In this document: one piece after another, positions 803-55,592 of the stretch | Layout: every line of letters starts with the position of its first letter | Numbering within the stretch: position 1 is the stretch's first letter | Assembly: GCA_902784865.1 (NCBI GenBank) | Contig: CACZWL010000012.1 | Location: forward strand, 1 to 64,000 | Reading direction: 5' to 3' | From: an uncultured Bacteroidota bacterium | Lineage (GTDB): Bacteria > Bacteroidota > Bacteroidia > Bacteroidales > P3 | DNA length: 64,000 bases | Translations under genes and position numbers: made by a program | The notes under the pieces: model-generated | Told to the model about the DNA's origin: nothing | The model's input: only the letters and a program-made list of their open reading frames with translations | The model's database searches: none

Positions 803-1606
803 ATGGCACGCTATTTTATACATTTGGCCTATAATGGAGCGAGTTACAACGGTTGGCAGACCCAGCCGGACCTGCCCACGGTGCAGCTCACCCTCGAGCA
901 GGCGCTCGGCACGCTGCTGCGTCAGCCCATCGCCGTCGTCGGCTGCGGCCGCACCGACACCGGCGTCCACGCCAGCGACTTCTACGCCCACTTCGACTGT
1001 GCGGCGGATGCGGGGTTGCCGGATAATATTGTCTTCAAACTCAACAACATACTGCCGGCGGATATCGCCATCTACGACATCTTTCCCGTGGCTGGCAACG
1101 CCCACGCACGCTTCGACGCCACGGCGCGCACCTACCAGTACCACGTCAGCGACCGCCGCTTGCCCTTCCGGCAGGGGCAGTACTGCCGCATCTATTACAA
1201 GCCCGACCTGGAGAAGATGAACGAGGCGGCGCGGGTGCTGATGGAGTACGACGACTTTACCTCCTTCGCCAAGCTCCACACACAGGTGAAGACCAATATC
1301 TGCCACCTCACCGAAGCGCGCTGGGACTTCGTCCCCGTCAGCAACCACGTGGCGGTGGCCGATGCGCCCATGGCTGACAACGCTGTGACCGACTACGAGT
1401 GGGTCTTCACCATCCGCAGCAACCGCTTCCTGCGCAATATGGTGCGCTCGGTCACCGGGACGCTGCTTGACGTGGGCCGCGGCAAGCTCACCATCGACGG
1501 CCTCCGCGAGATAATAGAGAAGAAAGACCGCTGCGCCGCCGGCACCAGCATGCCCGCCTGCGGACTCTTCCTCACTCGCGTCGAATACCCCCAAACACAA
1601 CACTAA
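803..1606 (+). CDS. truA: tRNA pseudouridine(38-40) synthase TruA
   Basis: TruA converts uridines 38-40 in the anticodon arm of many tRNAs to pseudouridine in the cytoplasm. The 267-residue length is normal for the family. The catalytic Asp is D52 in the GCGRTDTGVHA motif, and the C-terminal half carries the expected RNxFLRNMVRxxxG-type segment (NRFLRNMVRSVTG) near residue 215. The start is placed at the ATG 11 bp after a clear -7 box. It opens a plus-strand run with prmA 10 bp downstream. Length and motifs leave little doubt. Confidence 0.96.
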   Translation: MARYFIHLAYNGASYNGWQTQPDLPTVQLTLEQALGTLLRQPIAVVGCGRTDTGVHASDFYAHFDCAADAGLPDNIVFKLNNILPADIAIYDIFPVAGNAHARFDATARTYQYHVSDRRLPFRQGQYCRIYYKPDLEKMNEAARVLMEYDDFTSFAKLHTQVKTNICHLTEARWDFVPVSNHVAVADAPMADNAVTDYEWVFTIRSNRFLRNMVRSVTGTLLDVGRGKLTIDGLREIIEKKDRCAAGTSMPACGLFLTRVEYPQTQH

Positions 1607-1616
1607 ACACTGACCC

Positions 1617-2492
1617 ATGAAGTATATCGAAGTAACATTCACCCTGGCCGACACCGACGTCTTCCGCGACCTGCTGGTCGACACCCTCGGCAACGAAGGC
1701 CCCTACGAGAGTTTCGTCGAGACCCGCGACGGCCTGAAGGCCTACGTCCAGGCGCCGCAGTACGACGCCGCCTGGCTTGCCGCCGCGGTCGCGGCCTTCC
1801 CCGTCCCCGTGCACTACAAGGCCGCCGAGATGGAGGACCGCAACTGGAACGAGGAGTGGGAACGCCAGCACGAGGCCGTGCTCGTCAGGTTCACCCCCCA
1901 GGGGGGCGCCTCCGCCGACGGCTCCATCTGGGTCCGCGCACCTTTCCATCCTCACCGCTATGATATTGACTACGAGCTTATTATAGAACCAAAGATGAGC
2001 TTCGGCACCGCCCACCATCCCACCACGGCCATGATGCTGGCCTACGTCGCCGAGCTTGACATGGTGGGGCGCCGCGTCCTCGACATGGGCTGCGGCACCG
2101 CCGTCCTCGCCATCCTGGCCAAGAAGCGCGGCGCCGACTACGTGATGGGCATCGACGTCGACGAGTGGGCCTACCGCAACGCCCAGGAGAATGCCGCCGT
2201 CAACGGCGTACAGCTCGACCTACGCCTCGGCGACGCCACGCTGCTGGCGGGCAGCACGAATGGCGGGAAGCTGCCTGCTTTCGACACCGTCATCGCCAAT
2301 ATCAACCGAAATATCCTGCTGCGCGACATGGAGGCCTACGTCCGCGCCATGGCTCACGGCGCCACACTGCTCCTCTCCGGCTTCTACGAGGCCGACGAGG
2401 ACACCCTCGTCAGCCACGCCAACACCCTCGGCCTCAAACTCATAGACAAAAAGAACAACAACGGTTGGTCCGCCTTGCAGTTAGAGTTATGA
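1617..2492 (+). CDS. prmA: Ribosomal protein L11 methyltransferase
   Basis: PrmA trimethylates ribosomal protein L11 using S-adenosylmethionine. The 291-residue protein has the L11-binding N-terminal domain, then the substrate-facing PKMSFGTAHHPTT motif near residue 125, and the SAM motif VLDMGCGTAVLAI near residues 155-167. DVDEWAYRNAQENAAVNG follows as the usual second SAM contact, and IANINRNIL is the family's equivalent of the catalytic-site motif. Its stop codon overlaps the topB start in an ATGA, indicating translational coupling. Bacteroidota PrmA proteins are somewhat divergent from the E. coli form, and this one fits them. Confidence 0.93.
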   Translation: MKYIEVTFTLADTDVFRDLLVDTLGNEGPYESFVETRDGLKAYVQAPQYDAAWLAAAVAAFPVPVHYKAAEMEDRNWNEEWERQHEAVLVRFTPQGGASADGSIWVRAPFHPHRYDIDYELIIEPKMSFGTAHHPTTAMMLAYVAELDMVGRRVLDMGCGTAVLAILAKKRGADYVMGIDVDEWAYRNAQENAAVNGVQLDLRLGDATLLAGSTNGGKLPAFDTVIANINRNILLRDMEAYVRAMAHGATLLLSGFYEADEDTLVSHANTLGLKLIDKKNNNGWSALQLEL

Positions 2493-4324
2493 TAGTTTGT
2501 ATTGCAGAGAAACCCTCTGTGGCTCGTGAGATTGCCAAGGTGCTGGGCGCCAATGCCTCGCACGATGGCTATATGGAAGGCAACGGCTACCAGGTCACCT
2601 GGACCTTCGGCCACCTCTGCACCCTCAAAGAGCCGCAGGACTACACCGACCAGTGGCGTCGCTGGAGCCTCGGCTCGCTGCCCATGATACCGCCTCGCTT
2701 CGGCATTAAACTCATTGACAACCAGGGTTATGAGAAGCAGTTCCGCACCATCGAGCGCCTCATGCAGGCCGCCGACGGCATCATCAACTGCGGCGATGCC
2801 GGGCAGGAAGGCGAACTCATACAGCGGTGGGTCATGCAGAAAGCCAAGGCCACCTGCCCCGTGCAGCGCCTCTGGGTCAGCAGCCTCACCGAAGAGGCCA
2901 TCCGCGAAGCCTTCGCCAACCTGCGTCCGCAGGAGGAGTACCAGAGTCTCTACGAGGCCGGCCTCTGCCGCGCCATCGGCGACTGGCTCCTCGGCATGAA
3001 CGCCACGCGCCTCTACACCATACGCTTCGCGCAGCAGAAAGGCCAGGTCCTCTCCATCGGCCGCGTACAGACCCCCACGCTGGCCATGATCGTCAAGCGC
3101 CATTTCGAGATAAAGAACTTTACGCCAGAGAAATACTGGATACTCTCCACCCTCTACCGCGGCGTCACCTTCACCTCCACCAAGGGCAAGATCAAAAAGC
3201 CTGAGGAGGGGCAGCAGGCGCTCGACGCCATCCGCGGCAACGACTTCACCGTCACCGACATACAGCAGAAATCGGGCACCGAGGCGCCACCCCGCCTCTT
3301 CGACCTCACCAGCCTGCAGGTCGAGTGCAACAAGAAATTCTCCTTCTCCGCCGACGACACGCTGAAGCACATACAGTCGCTCTACGAGAAGAAGCTCACC
3401 ACCTACCCCCGCGTCGACACCACCTACCTCTCCGACGACATCTATGCCCGCTGCCCCAACATACTGCAAGGCCTCACACCCTACGCACCTCTCATACAAC
3501 CACTTATGGGCAAGAAGTTGAAGAAGAGCAAGAAGGTCTTCGACAGCAGCAAGGTCACCGACCACCACGCCATCATACCCACCGGCCACGACCCCTCGAC
3601 GGCTGGCCTCACCATGGCCGAAAAGCGTGTCTACGACCTCGTTGCGCGCCGTTTTATAGCCGTCTTCTACCCCGACTGCAAGTTCTCCACCACCACCGTC
3701 CTCGGCGAAGTCAAGGCCGTGCCCGACGCAGAGCAGAAACCCCTGGCTGAATTCAAGGCCACCGGCAAGCAGATCCTCGACGAGGGCTGGCGCGCCGTCT
3801 TCGGTGGCCAGGCTGCCACACCCGACGACGACGCCAAGAAGCCCGACGACGAGGAGCAGACCCTCCCGGCCTTCGCCCAGGGCGAGCACGGCCCGCACGA
3901 GCCCACCCTCGCCGAGAAGCAGACCACGCCGCCAAAGCCCTACACCGAGGCCACCCTCCTGCGCGCCATGGAGACCGCCGGAAAGACCGTCGACAACGAC
4001 GAGCTGCGCGACGCCCTCAAGGCCAACGGCATAGGCCGCCCCTCCACACGCGCCGCCATCATCGAGACACTGTTCAAACGCCAGTATATCAGCAAGGTGC
4101 GCAAAAGCCTGGAGCCTACGCCCACAGGCATAGCCCTCATCGGCGTCATACAGGAGGACCTCCTCAAGAGCGCCGAGCTTACCGGCCAGTGGGAGAAGAA
4201 GTTACGCGACATCGAGGCCCACAAATACGACGCCCACCAGTTCCTAGACGAGCTGAAACAGATGACCGCCCAAATCGTCCAGCAGGTCATGTCCGACGGC
4301 ACCCGCCGCCTGGTCTACCAGTAA
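2489..4324 (+). CDS. topB: DNA topoisomerase III (type IA)
   Basis: A type IA topoisomerase that relaxes and decatenates DNA through a single-strand break. The frame is open further upstream inside prmA, but the real start is the ATG at 2489, overlapping the prmA stop and giving MIVCIAEKPSVAREIAKVLG, the conserved Toprim opening. The acidic Toprim motif appears as GDAGQEGEL near residue 100, VLSIGRVQTPTLAMI follows, and the catalytic tyrosine is Y306 in TYPRVDT. The GIGRPSTRAAIIE box is near residue 515. At 611 residues it stops soon after the core and shows no C-terminal four-cysteine zinc ribbons. Confidence 0.95.
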   Translation: MIVCIAEKPSVAREIAKVLGANASHDGYMEGNGYQVTWTFGHLCTLKEPQDYTDQWRRWSLGSLPMIPPRFGIKLIDNQGYEKQFRTIERLMQAADGIINCGDAGQEGELIQRWVMQKAKATCPVQRLWVSSLTEEAIREAFANLRPQEEYQSLYEAGLCRAIGDWLLGMNATRLYTIRFAQQKGQVLSIGRVQTPTLAMIVKRHFEIKNFTPEKYWILSTLYRGVTFTSTKGKIKKPEEGQQALDAIRGNDFTVTDIQQKSGTEAPPRLFDLTSLQVECNKKFSFSADDTLKHIQSLYEKKLTTYPRVDTTYLSDDIYARCPNILQGLTPYAPLIQPLMGKKLKKSKKVFDSSKVTDHHAIIPTGHDPSTAGLTMAEKRVYDLVARRFIAVFYPDCKFSTTTVLGEVKAVPDAEQKPLAEFKATGKQILDEGWRAVFGGQAATPDDDAKKPDDEEQTLPAFAQGEHGPHEPTLAEKQTTPPKPYTEATLLRAMETAGKTVDNDELRDALKANGIGRPSTRAAIIETLFKRQYISKVRKSLEPTPTGIALIGVIQEDLLKSAELTGQWEKKLRDIEAHKYDAHQFLDELKQMTAQIVQQVMSDGTRRLVYQ

Positions 4325-15684: not shown

Positions 15685-15730
15685 CCTTACCAATGACTTA
15701 CCAAGGAAGAAGAGGGGAAGAAGAGGGTGC
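15685..15730 (+). repeat. Two 11-bp CTTACCA units plus purine-rich repeat
   Basis: CCTTACCAATG and ACTTACCAAGG form two 11-bp units, followed by a purine block GAAGAAGAGGGGAAGAAGAG. A 27-bp stretch (15699-15725) is identical to 36206-36232. Both copies continue with a CTGAAAATCA segment and a hairpin. Confidence 0.8.
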
Positions 15731-30104: not shown

Positions 30105-30126
30105 CCGGAAAAAAGTAACCACGATT

Positions 30127-30199
30127 ACCCACCGATGGGAAATGACAGGAAAGAGTCGAAGCATTCACCTACCAGATACCTACCAGATACCTACCAGAC
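30127..30199 (+). repeat. Purine-rich leader plus three 11-bp ACCTACCA units
   Basis: Three units ACCTACCAGAT, ACCTACCAGAT, ACCTACCAGAC at 30167-30199 follow a leader with GGAAAGAGTCGAAG, as at 691-753. The copies differ by only a few bases over about 60 bp. This one lies about 60 bp upstream of ychF. Confidence 0.85.
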
Positions 30200-36189: not shown

Positions 36190-36240
36190 ACCCCTGCCAT
36201 ACCCCTACCAAGGAAGAAGAGGGGAAGAAGAGAGTACCCT
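36190..36240 (+). repeat. Two 11-bp units plus purine-rich repeat
   Basis: ACCCCTGCCAT and ACCCCTACCAA form two 11-bp units followed by GGAAGAAGAGGGGAAGAAGAG. The stretch 36206-36232 is identical to 15699-15725. Both copies follow a rho-independent terminator by 15-55 bp and precede a second hairpin. Confidence 0.8.
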
Positions 36241-45370: not shown

Positions 45371-46296
45371 AGCGGGTTGATTGTCACGCTGTTGTACGAC
45401 AGCAGGATTTCGGGGTGGTAGGAGAGTTTGGCCTTGCGCAGCCCGGGCAGGCCCATGTCCTCCTCGCGGTTGAGGTAGACATACTGCTCCGGCAGGTGAG
45501 CCGCAAACTGCTGGTTTATAACGCTGAAGGCGCCGTCGACGAAGCGGTCGGCCTTTTCGACGCAGACGTCGAAGGTGTCGTGCGTGACGGGAGCGCCGTA
45601 GGTGAAGGCCAGCATGCGTCCGGCGTCGAAGATGGCGCCGCCGATGGCGTCGAGGCTGCCCCAGTGGTCGAAGATGCGCTGCATGACGCGCTCTTCGGCG
45701 GCAATGGTGTCGCCGTAGTCGGGGTTGTCGTGCGGCGTCTCGCTCTGCCAGAGGCGCACCAGCTCGAGACACTGCGGGAAGAGGGCGGGGGAGAGCTCGC
45801 GGTACTCGAACGCGGGGTGCTCGGAGAGGAACTTGTTGACGTGGTTACGCTTGTTTTTCAGGCTTTTGCCGGCCAGGTTGGCCAGCTCGGTGCGCAGGTA
45901 GATGTAGTCGTAGCTGTTGCGCTGGGGCGTGGCCGTGGCGCGGCCGGGGAAAAGGTCGACTATGGCGGCGGCGCGGTCGTCCTCCAAGCACCTCACCGCC
46001 AGCGTGGTGCCTTGCGCCGTGGCGTCGTTGACCATGCGCTCGAGCAAGTTGCGGCAGGGCGTCTCCTTCGAGGCAATGAGGTAGTTGAGTTCGGAACCCA
46101 GGCGGTAGCGCAGCACGACATGGCCCTCGCAGAAGGCCACCTCGGTGCCGAATTCGGGCTGCCAACCGAAGAGGTTGCTGAAGTTGAAGTTGCAGTTGCG
46201 CAGGCCCGCGTCGAGGGTGACGGCCTGCACGGCCTCGCGGTCGGCAAGGGTCAACGCGTGGAATTCCAGGCATTTGGATATGCAGTCATGGGGCAT
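45367..46296 (-). CDS. DUF2156 acyltransferase-fold protein
   Basis: A 309-residue protein of the DUF2156 family, whose tandem GNAT-like fold is found in lysylphosphatidylglycerol synthases and other aminoacyl-tRNA-dependent transferases. Recognisable blocks are NFSNLFGWQPEF, YDYIYLRTELANLAGKSLKNKRNHVNKFL, LAFTYGAPVTHDTFDVCVEKAD and VYLNREEDMGLPGLRKAKLSYHP. The ATG at 46296 is used because a -7 box lies at 46330-46337 inside the longer frame. Together with the adjacent GNAT gene it forms a Bacteroidota-typical pair. Confidence 0.85.
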   Translation of the reverse strand: MPHDCISKCLEFHALTLADREAVQAVTLDAGLRNCNFNFSNLFGWQPEFGTEVAFCEGHVVLRYRLGSELNYLIASKETPCRNLLERMVNDATAQGTTLAVRCLEDDRAAAIVDLFPGRATATPQRNSYDYIYLRTELANLAGKSLKNKRNHVNKFLSEHPAFEYRELSPALFPQCLELVRLWQSETPHDNPDYGDTIAAEERVMQRIFDHWGSLDAIGGAIFDAGRMLAFTYGAPVTHDTFDVCVEKADRFVDGAFSVINQQFAAHLPEQYVYLNREEDMGLPGLRKAKLSYHPEILLSYNSVTINPL

Positions 46297-46329
46297 AGCG
46301 ATATCTTTTTTCTTCAAAAAATTGCGGTG

Positions 46330-46337
46330 CAAAGATA
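46330..46337 (-). promoter_or_regulatory. -7 box of the DUF2156-GNAT operon
   Basis: On the minus strand TATCTTTG followed by CACCGCAAT, 33 bp upstream of the chosen ATG. The perfect stem-loop at 46359-46412 begins about 20 bp upstream of it and could affect the promoter. Confidence 0.75.
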
Positions 46338-46358
46338 CGAAAAAAAATTCTTTTCGCG

Positions 46359-46616
46359 GCAAATGTTAATACCTGTTAAACAAGGGTCCGTTTAACAGGT
46401 ATTAACATTTGCTATTTTGACACCTACCAGAGTCGAACCATATACCTACCATTCACCTACCAGATGGCTTAAATGCCTGAATATCACATATATGATTACA
46501 ACGTGCTGTGATACAGTCTATTGCAGAGGTTTTCACCACCCGGAGCGCCAAAAACGACACTTTAGGAAACAGGACGCCAACTTTCCTAATAAATGTTAAT
46601 TTAACGATTTTTAAGA
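46359..46616 (+). repeat. Composite repeat element, copy 1: stem-loop, 11-bp array, conserved tail
   Basis: A perfect 23-bp inverted repeat (46359-46381 with 46390-46412, 8-nt loop) is followed by four 11-bp units at 46422-46465 (unit 2 degenerate). A variable middle follows, then a conserved tail near 46565-46616 containing CGCCAACTTTCCTAATAAA and GTTAATTTAACG. The same order occurs in opposite orientation at 55324-55592. No coding frame. Size and repeats suggest a non-autonomous mobile element or a non-coding RNA gene. Confidence 0.8.
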
Positions 46617-46700
46617 TTTTTACAGGCTCCGAACGCGACCTTTGTTTAGGGCGATTTTTTTGCGACCGACATTTTTTTTGGCCATGTGAAGTATTTTTCG

Positions 46701-46708
46701 TATTTTTG
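46701..46708 (+). promoter_or_regulatory. -7 box of the trmH-type methyltransferase gene
   Basis: TATTTTTG followed by CACAC in a T-rich context, 24 bp before the ATG at 46733. Downstream of composite repeat copy 1. Confidence 0.7.
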
Positions 46709-46732
46709 CACACGAAAACAGACTAGCGAAAG

Positions 46733-47272
46733 ATGACATACAAGCTGACAACCGAAGAGATGGGGCGCCTGACGGTGGCGGAATTCCGCGAGAGCGCGAA
46801 GCTTCCGCTGACGGTGGTGCTCGACAACGTGCGCTCGCAGAACAACATCGGCTCGGTGTTTCGCACGGCCGACGCTTTCCGCGTGGAGCACATCGCCCTG
46901 TGCGGCATCTGCTCGACGCCTCCGCACCGCGAGATACACAAGACGGCGCTGGGCGCGGAAGAGAGCGTGGAGTGGAGCCACCACGACGACACGGCGGCCT
47001 GCGTCCGGTCGCTCAAGGCGCTGGGCTACAAGGTTTTCGCCGTCGAGATAGCCCACGGCAGCCTGAAGCTCGGGGCGTTGCCCGCCGACGCCTTCGGCCC
47101 AGGGGTCAAGACCGCCATCGTCTTCGGCAACGAAATCGACGGCGTGCAGGAGGAGGTGATGGCCCTGTGCGACGGGGCCCTGGAGATACCGCAGGAAGGC
47201 ACAAAGCACTCGCTCAATGTCAGTTGCGCCGCGGCGATAGTCATGTGGGAAATGTGGAAACTAAAACACTGA
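46733..47272 (+). CDS. TrmH/SpoU-family RNA 2'-O-methyltransferase
   Basis: A 179-residue SPOUT methyltransferase. Motif 1 is RSQNNIGSVFRTADAF, motif 2 AIVFGNEIDGVQEEV, motif 3 IPQEGTKHSLNVSCAAAIVMWE, forming the trefoil-knot SAM site. Short length without an N-terminal substrate-binding domain is typical of the Bacteroidota form. It modifies a tRNA or rRNA ribose; which one is not readable. The following exported-protein gene starts 7 bp later. Confidence 0.92.
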   Translation: MTYKLTTEEMGRLTVAEFRESAKLPLTVVLDNVRSQNNIGSVFRTADAFRVEHIALCGICSTPPHREIHKTALGAEESVEWSHHDDTAACVRSLKALGYKVFAVEIAHGSLKLGALPADAFGPGVKTAIVFGNEIDGVQEEVMALCDGALEIPQEGTKHSLNVSCAAAIVMWEMWKLKH

Positions 47273-55323: not shown

Positions 55324-55592
55324 CATAAAAAGCGTTAATTTAACGTTTATTAGGAAAGTTGGCGGCCTGTTTTCGGGAGCATGGGATGCCCCCCGGAAGG
55401 CGCTGCCGAGGCCTCCGAAACCCTTGCAACTTCCACCAACACAGCGAGTTATGTTGATATGCGTGATTTACAGCACTTTACGTCATCTGGTAGGTGAATG
55501 GTAGGTATATGGTAGGTACATGGTAGGGGGGTGAAAAGTACAAATGTTAATACCTGTTAAACGAGGGTGCGTTTAACAGGTATTAACATTTG
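55324..55592 (-). repeat. Composite repeat element, copy 2, inverted relative to copy 1
   Basis: Read on the minus strand: perfect 22-bp stem-loop (55541-55562 with 55571-55592, 8-nt loop), four perfect-to-near-perfect 11-bp ACCTACCA units at 55485-55528, variable middle, and a tail matching copy 1 (CGCCAACTTTCCTAATAAA, GTTAAATTAACG) at about 55325-55375. It fills the gap between the AraC-type gene and the S9 peptidase. Confidence 0.8.

Follow-up and report, generated by a model that had tools for sequence, protein, structure and literature searches.

The DNA analyzed here, 64,000 nucleotides from the genome of an uncultured, gut-type Bacteroidota bacterium (G000; hereafter, this whole stretch is the window), carries at positions 46359 to 46616 of the forward strand a composite repeat element between two diverging genes, one for a protein with an LPG_synthase_C domain (PF09924, Pfam) and one for a SpoU methylase. 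The first gene does adjoin the element, as had been said in an earlier note on this DNA, which gave it the name DUF2156; the Pfam name is LPG_synthase_C, which we take to be the former DUF2156. The element opens with a stem-loop whose 23-bp arms (46359-46381 and 46390-46412) are 100% complementary and enclose an 8-nt loop, exactly as first described. An array of four 11-bp units follows at 46422-46465 and reads, in order, ACCTACCAGAG, TCGAACCATAT, ACCTACCATTC, and ACCTACCAGAT. The earlier description of a four-unit tandem array is thus right about the spacing and wrong about identity, since three units conform to ACCTACCAnnn and the second, TCGAACCATAT, diverges. A variable middle (46466-46564) separates the array from a conserved tail, given before as about 45 bp and here delimited to 42 bp (46565-46606). 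In an alignment of 30 copies from the genome, the array, the stem, and the tail were conserved, and the middle diverged. The element ends at 46607-46620, where some other copies have a weak A+T-rich hairpin (AAATGTTAAA..TTTAACATTT); in some copies, both ends carry a AAATGTTAA-like sequence (both by eye in the alignment).

Folded as single-stranded DNA, positions 46355-46416 gave a z score of -10.3, and none of 200 shuffles folded as well. A 31-base core of the tail matched twice in the window at up to 3 mismatches and never in 100 shuffles; neither stem nor tail matches were found in shuffled windows. The second tail match belongs to a second copy on the negative strand at 55324-55592, which, as had been noticed, repeats the same parts in inverted orientation and can be aligned with the first from end to end at a mean column identity of 82%. 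Its perfect 23-bp stem-loop, with a 6-nt loop, lies at 55541-55592, its array of CCTACCA-type units at 55487-55530, and its tail at 55333-55375. The copy is found between two convergent genes, HTH_18-like (under the Pfam cutoff) and Peptidase_S9. The window also contains 11-bp GGAAGAAGAGG repeats at 15705-15727 and 36212-36232; a similar sequence, GGGAAGAAGAGGATA, follows some arrays elsewhere (L377, L404, L423).

The earlier note had made its reading depend on further copies in the genome, and these exist. A 276-bp query produced 82 matches in the 2.40-Mb genome, a count that includes partial pieces and self-matches of the palindrome. Forty-one distinct loci, 30 from this search and 11 added afterwards, were examined; together with one more (contig C5, near 4137), they amount to at least 42 copies of the long element, located between genes. 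An element HMM, built from 30 of the 41 loci and therefore not independent of those, matched 39 of them from model position 2-4 (all except L129 and L131), and in 37 the match spanned position 2-4 to at least 267 (L022 ended at 256 and L130 at 260). By mechanical ORF calls, with frames mostly inside the element excluded, 33 of the 41 copies were wholly between frames and 8 overlapped the edge of a called frame by 8 to 91 nt. The 82 flanking gene ends comprised 39 starts and 43 stops, distributed unevenly: 13 starts and 28 stops on the stem-loop side, 26 and 15 on the tail side (Fisher p = 0.008). Between tandem genes, 16 of 19 copies were oriented with transcription and 3 against it (p = 0.004). 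Both tests were chosen post hoc, with the data already seen; the orientation bias could reflect a regulatory role.

The stem co-varies across copies. In 39 copies (38 distinct rows, with L129 and L131 left out), 92.1% of the stem cells were paired versus 87.5% in shuffles, and 8 of 22 stem pairs were altered on both sides. Double-changed cells numbered 44 versus 20.9 ± 3.1 in shuffles, none of 500 reaching as high a value; the number of further pair types was not exceptional (86 of 500 shuffles as high). Four outer or inner pairs fail, each in 5 to 15 copies. In a separate count, a stem was recognizable in 36 of the 41 copies and perfect in 25 of those. The loop (46382-46389 in the window) occurs in both orientations: of 36 copies, 26 had the CCC type, 5 the GGG type, and 5 neither, which looks as if the center of the palindrome had inverted. 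Template switching at palindromes also yields loop inversion and repair of stem mismatches; the co-variation alone is thus no proof of selection.

The same ACCTACCA array is shared by a second, short family of G000 with a different, unrelated palindrome. A short unit consists of a palindrome around TTTCCCATCGATGGGAAA, then GAGTCGAAGTATTC, then at least three ACCTACCAGAT units, and the genome holds at least 40 copies. Two lie on the positive strand of the window, each with an imperfect palindrome, a spacer, and three ACCTACCA units: one at 670-757, with a GAGTCGAAGTATTC spacer, upstream of a truA-like tRNA pseudouridine synthase gene, and the other at 30117-30198, upstream of a YchF-type GTPase gene (ychF-like). 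The exact array pair was present in 28 of 30 short-family loci. Among 110 distinct arrays in 2,074,965 bases of G000, 65 were of the short type, 33 of the long type, and 12 of neither. Palindrome arms of at least 12 bp with no more than 3 mismatches accompanied 13 of the 65 short arrays; most others retain a 7- to 9-bp core, and beside about 14 of the 65 no palindrome was seen by eye. Of 28 short copies placed relative to genes, 10 were flanked by gene ends on both sides, 8 by gene starts on both sides, and 10 had mixed flanks.

A DNA query for the long element matched 6 of 41 genomes (its own included) at E ≤ 1e-3, all from the same genus, and in G008, G014, and G021 only a short piece matched. 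In the closest relative, G001, one site shares the element and both flanks (L011/L180), another the element and one flank (L007/L181), and at the rpsO site (L022/L185) a degenerate array and the tail are retained. At six of the nine sites compared, the sequence covered in G001 had no copy; the interval between the flanks was fully covered for both window copies, C7:52383, and C2:15517, and the sequence next to each flank for C7:38848 and C2:7113. C1:136746 was unassignable in G001 owing to a contig end. At C2:15517, both flanking genes are kept and the element is absent, with intergenic DNA that does not align and hence no clean empty site. The search for empty sites proposed earlier thus yielded absence in a close relative and, across the synteny comparisons with relatives including G001, no base-exact empty site. 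Several element sites coincide with synteny breaks; such breaks are also found where there is no element (L278, 9071-9198). The peptidase site carries the element in 1 of 14 genomes, its own; in G002, a palindromic CCTACCA array of another kind occupies this site. The array unit itself is common to the copies within a genome and differs between genomes, being ACCTACCA in G000 and CCCTACCA in G001, even at an orthologous site. Such species-specific units are expected if a binder acting in trans shapes the unit.

A candidate for such a binder is suggested by three Prevotellaceae genomes, in which inverted hairpin-plus-iteron ends flank one VapE-like helicase gene in a unit of 1.55 to 1.7 kb (L361 in G121, L364 in G123, and L203 in G124). 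In all three, a single gene of 383 to 403 aa lies between the ends, an array lies no more than about 10 bases from the end of that gene, and inverted ends stand on both sides. The ends of about 110 bp are 78 to 81% alike in L361 and L364; in L203, 48 bp are alike at 92%. The two genes scanned, those of L361 and L364, matched the Pfam VapE-like domain PF05272 with E values of 1.2e-33 and 5.9e-37. DUF3874 was also matched, in L364 under the cutoff. The PHROGs annotation of the bracketed gene is DNA helicase/primase, L361 matched VapE in the PDB (7pds, E 1.4e-9), and the L203 protein was placed by alignment rather than by a domain scan. The window element shares with these units an inverted repeat adjoined by CCTACCA iterons every 11 bp; its stem, unlike those of the Prevotella units, is not built from the iteron motif.

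Inverted pairs with no gene between them are common in G121 and in a fourth genome, G122. Among the pairs listed, arrays inverted at a distance of 92 to 320 bp numbered 18 in G121, at least 9 in G122, and one in G123; a spacing of about 1.5 kb was seen for one inverted pair in G121 and one in G123, and single arrays occur in G121 to G123 as well. We also inspected 13 VapE homologues from plasmid and phage records by eye, after the gene in all 13 and before it in L468 to L470. The design was clear only in L469 from Bacteroides finegoldii (1131-3716), where a primase-VapE gene is accompanied by 82-nt inverted repeats (72%), a 16-bp hairpin, and, on one side, 11-bp CTGACAATA repeats, a motif different from CCTACCA. 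L468 has a partial version of the hairpin end, L470 weak 11-bp repeats after the gene, and L475, L477, and L480 hairpins without such repeats; none was seen in the other seven. In viral contigs, 91 pattern matches for VapE were obtained, none of them a relative by tblastn.

No VapE-like frame (E ≤ 10) was found in the 2,074,965 of 2,404,232 bases (86.3%) of G000 that were searched; the VapE model recovered all 13 homologues, of 28 to 35% identity, at E ≤ 1e-39. Over the same 86% of the genome, no inverted array pairs were encountered, whether enclosing a VapE gene or a short spacer, and the closest two arrays were 3.6 kb apart.

We consider that there is close to an even chance that the window element is a non-autonomous, REP/MITE-like dispersed unit whose hairpin and iterons are where a VapE-type helicase binds and starts. 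The observations behind this reading are the copy number, the anatomy, the co-variation, the lineage-specific placement, and, in three genomes belonging to the same order, the helicase gene enclosed by hairpin-plus-iteron ends. Of the options listed in the earlier note, a non-autonomous mobile element or a REP/BIME-like unit fits these best and is partly supported, since the copies are dispersed and number at least 42, their placement is lineage specific, and in relatives the same design brackets a helicase gene. The link to the helicase is moderately supported in the relatives and unproven in G000.

The working part of the element would be the hairpin followed, some 10 to 15 bp on, by three or four iterons spaced by one helical turn (11 bp). 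The CCTACCA iterons would be the putative binding site of a self-loading, VapE-type (PF05272) helicase comparable to those that start the replication of staphylococcal islands, and the hairpin a strand-opening or start site. Binding may drive copying or spread, and the window units may have been spread by a relative of this helicase. The unit inverted at both ends would be the Prevotellaceae form, bracketing the helicase gene, and the gene-less single units of two families would be the form in G000. In a more speculative step, insertion might occur when the unwound hairpin strand is copied and the host carries out the joining. Against this reading, helicases by themselves do not transfer strands, the searched 86% of G000 yielded no VapE gene and no inverted pairs, neither a clean empty site nor a target-site duplication was seen, and the design was clear in only one of the 13 plasmid and phage homologues. 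Also counting against it are the stem of the window element, which is not built from the iteron motif, and the roughly 14 short arrays with no palindrome. The reading predicts that the helicase binds CCTACCA iterons.

A precedent is found in staphylococcal islands. The helicases SaPI Rep and SCCmec Cch2 bind to direct repeats adjacent to the genes that encode them. At cch2, these iterons lie just downstream of the gene and adjoin inverted repeats that could form hairpins but are not needed for binding (PMC7581432). The likeness thus extends from a helicase gene followed by direct-repeat iterons to, at cch2, hairpin-capable inverted repeats (PMC7581432); by analogy, the CCTACCA units would be iterons of the SaPI Rep/Cch2 kind and the hairpin an opening or start site. 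The islands, as described there, differ in carrying other genes and in not being dispersed in tens of copies, and iteron binding in the present elements is putative. VirE-type ATPases are referred to as predicted helicases of mobile elements in PMC5862659. REP/REPIN-RAYT systems (PMC6006769, PMC3733652) similarly combine one protein gene flanked by palindromic repeats with intergenic dispersal and some inverted pairs; however, their protein, RAYT, is an HUH nuclease whose substrates are tagged hairpins, whereas the gene bracketed here codes for a helicase, with an 11-bp iteron array as the tag.

A broader proposal, which we put forward as a tentative possibility, is that these sequences form a new class of mobile DNA in Bacteroidota: one-gene VapE/DUF3874 elements with origin-like, inverted hairpin-plus-iteron ends, together with gene-less intergenic derivatives at about 100 copies per genome, the window element being one such derivative with a segment from upstream of rpsO as its tail. 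The spread of repeats in bacterial genomes is usually attributed to nucleases, namely transposases and RAYTs. The proposed class would resemble REPIN/RAYT in its spread but be helicase driven rather than nuclease driven. If this is true, helicase-linked, origin-like repeats would mean that short DNA can multiply in chromosomes by another route, and some solitary VapE-type genes of Bacteroidales would have a possible job. In mainly open-access literature exclusive of bioRxiv preprints, we found no description of hairpin-plus-iteron ends around VapE genes, and literal unit sequences used as queries retrieved no paper; this silence is a weak sign of novelty.

The tail is what the helicase reading leaves unexplained, being identical to a motif upstream of rpsO. 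The motif AACTTTCCTAAYAANNGTTAA was present in 13 of 99 genomes of the genus, 30 times in G000 and 0 to 5 times elsewhere (reversed control, 0). Nine genomes have it once, always before rpsO: in the eight with directly called genes, 104 to 111 nt from the start codon, and in the ninth (L043) with rpsO assigned by tblastn. Among 30 rpsO loci, the tail motif was found at 23 by a loose pattern and at 18 by a stricter one, also where no array occurs. A HIT gene precedes rpsO in 11 of the 30 loci, and the gap between the two contains the full hairpin and array in G000, the same with a degenerate stem in G023, arrays without a hairpin in G001 and G081, palindromic arrays in G008, G021, and G051, and no array in G071, G002, G061, and L156. 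In G071, the tail comes immediately after the stop codon of the HIT gene, with no array; thus, at rpsO the tail is older than the element or independent of it. In G008, G021, and G061, the tail also terminates a different palindromic array element of about 130 bp.

A somewhat unlikely alternative is that the repeats are sites for a host DNA-binding protein (a global regulator or nucleoid factor) kept by local selection, the tail sharing a regulatory code with rpsO. The tail motif upstream of 23 of the 30 rpsO genes, array or not, speaks for such sites, as do the conservation of array, stem, and tail against a diverging middle, the agreement with transcription at 16 of 19 tandem sites, and the position of both short copies in the window upstream of the truA-like and ychF-like genes. 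However, starts and stops are about equally frequent at the flanks of the long element, and likewise for the 28 short copies, and the closest relative has no copy in the covered sequence at six of nine sites. The abundance of the array also varies widely within the genus: exact CCTACCANNNNCCTACCA pairs numbered 201 in G000, 61 in G021, 60 in G061, 12 in G001, 10 in G002, and 0 in G071, with 0 to 3 in reversed controls.

It is improbable that the element is a classical MITE, an internally deleted insertion sequence (DDE or Y1/RAYT) in which the array is a passenger. The model is BrickBuilt of Porphyromonas gingivalis, presented in PMC4596501 as a MITE of 19 intergenic copies with a leader, tandem direct repeats, and a tail. 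Copy number, intergenic placement, and layout resemble this Bacteroidales family, which, by the same account, has 23-nt repeats, IS5-like terminal repeats, and many partial copies of its own and occurs in P. gingivalis and P. gulae (PMC4596501). Target-site duplications, which the earlier note had proposed to look for, were not seen by eye in the aligned flanks. A search for Y1_Tnp (PF01797) in 31 genomes located two Y1/RAYT-type genes in G000, at C5:112777 and C5:127839 (L173); no element copy lies within 500 bases on either side of them, and RAYT/REP was rejected as the cognate system. One of the two genes is followed by a tandem run of unrelated REP-like repeats, and the array nearest to a Y1 gene, of the short family, is about 2.6 kb away. 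Likenesses to attC, dif/Xer, LytTR, ParR, and G-quadruplex sequences were considered at the level of motifs only and set aside.

We regard it as very unlikely that the repeats are small RNA genes or transcription terminators built around the strong stem-loop. In favor of this, the co-varying stem is compatible with either an RNA or a DNA hairpin, the stem-loop has a terminator-like score (1 found versus 0.6 expected in shuffles), and gene ends lie on the stem side of 28 of 41 copies. Against it, none of 4,227 Rfam families reached its gathering score in the window, folding outside the stem-loop did not exceed that of shuffles (z = -0.90), a scan of 46200-46800 for sigma-70-type promoters, which does not cover Bacteroidetes promoters, gave no match, and the loop orientation varies among copies. 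The small-RNA gene of the earlier note is therefore not supported by the Rfam, fold, and promoter results, and the terminator is kept as a rival.

Compared with all these rivals, the helicase-linked dispersed unit remains our preferred reading, and arrays of its kind occur beyond the genus. A scan of 84,980 species genomes for three CCTACCA motifs at 11-bp spacing returned at least 90 stretches, given as 80 loci, whose titles were mostly those of Bacteroidales MAGs, plus Pedobacter sp. L105; single matches outside these groups may be due to chance. Of 81 arrays from the 80 loci, 40 had a perfect inverted repeat with arms of at least 12 bp beside or within the array (from 110 before to 40 after it, arrays with too little upstream DNA being skipped), compared with 0 of 81 control windows. 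Many of those inverted repeats consist of array units in opposite orientation, so that array and hairpin are not independent there. Viral contigs contained 10 stretches of CCTACCA arrays, and in L284, L290, and L291 an inverted TGGTAG unit is seen by eye just after the array. Pedobacter sp. L105 (L192, L211, L238) combines a hairpin with CCCTACCAA arrays and is a possible laboratory model for hairpin-plus-array units.
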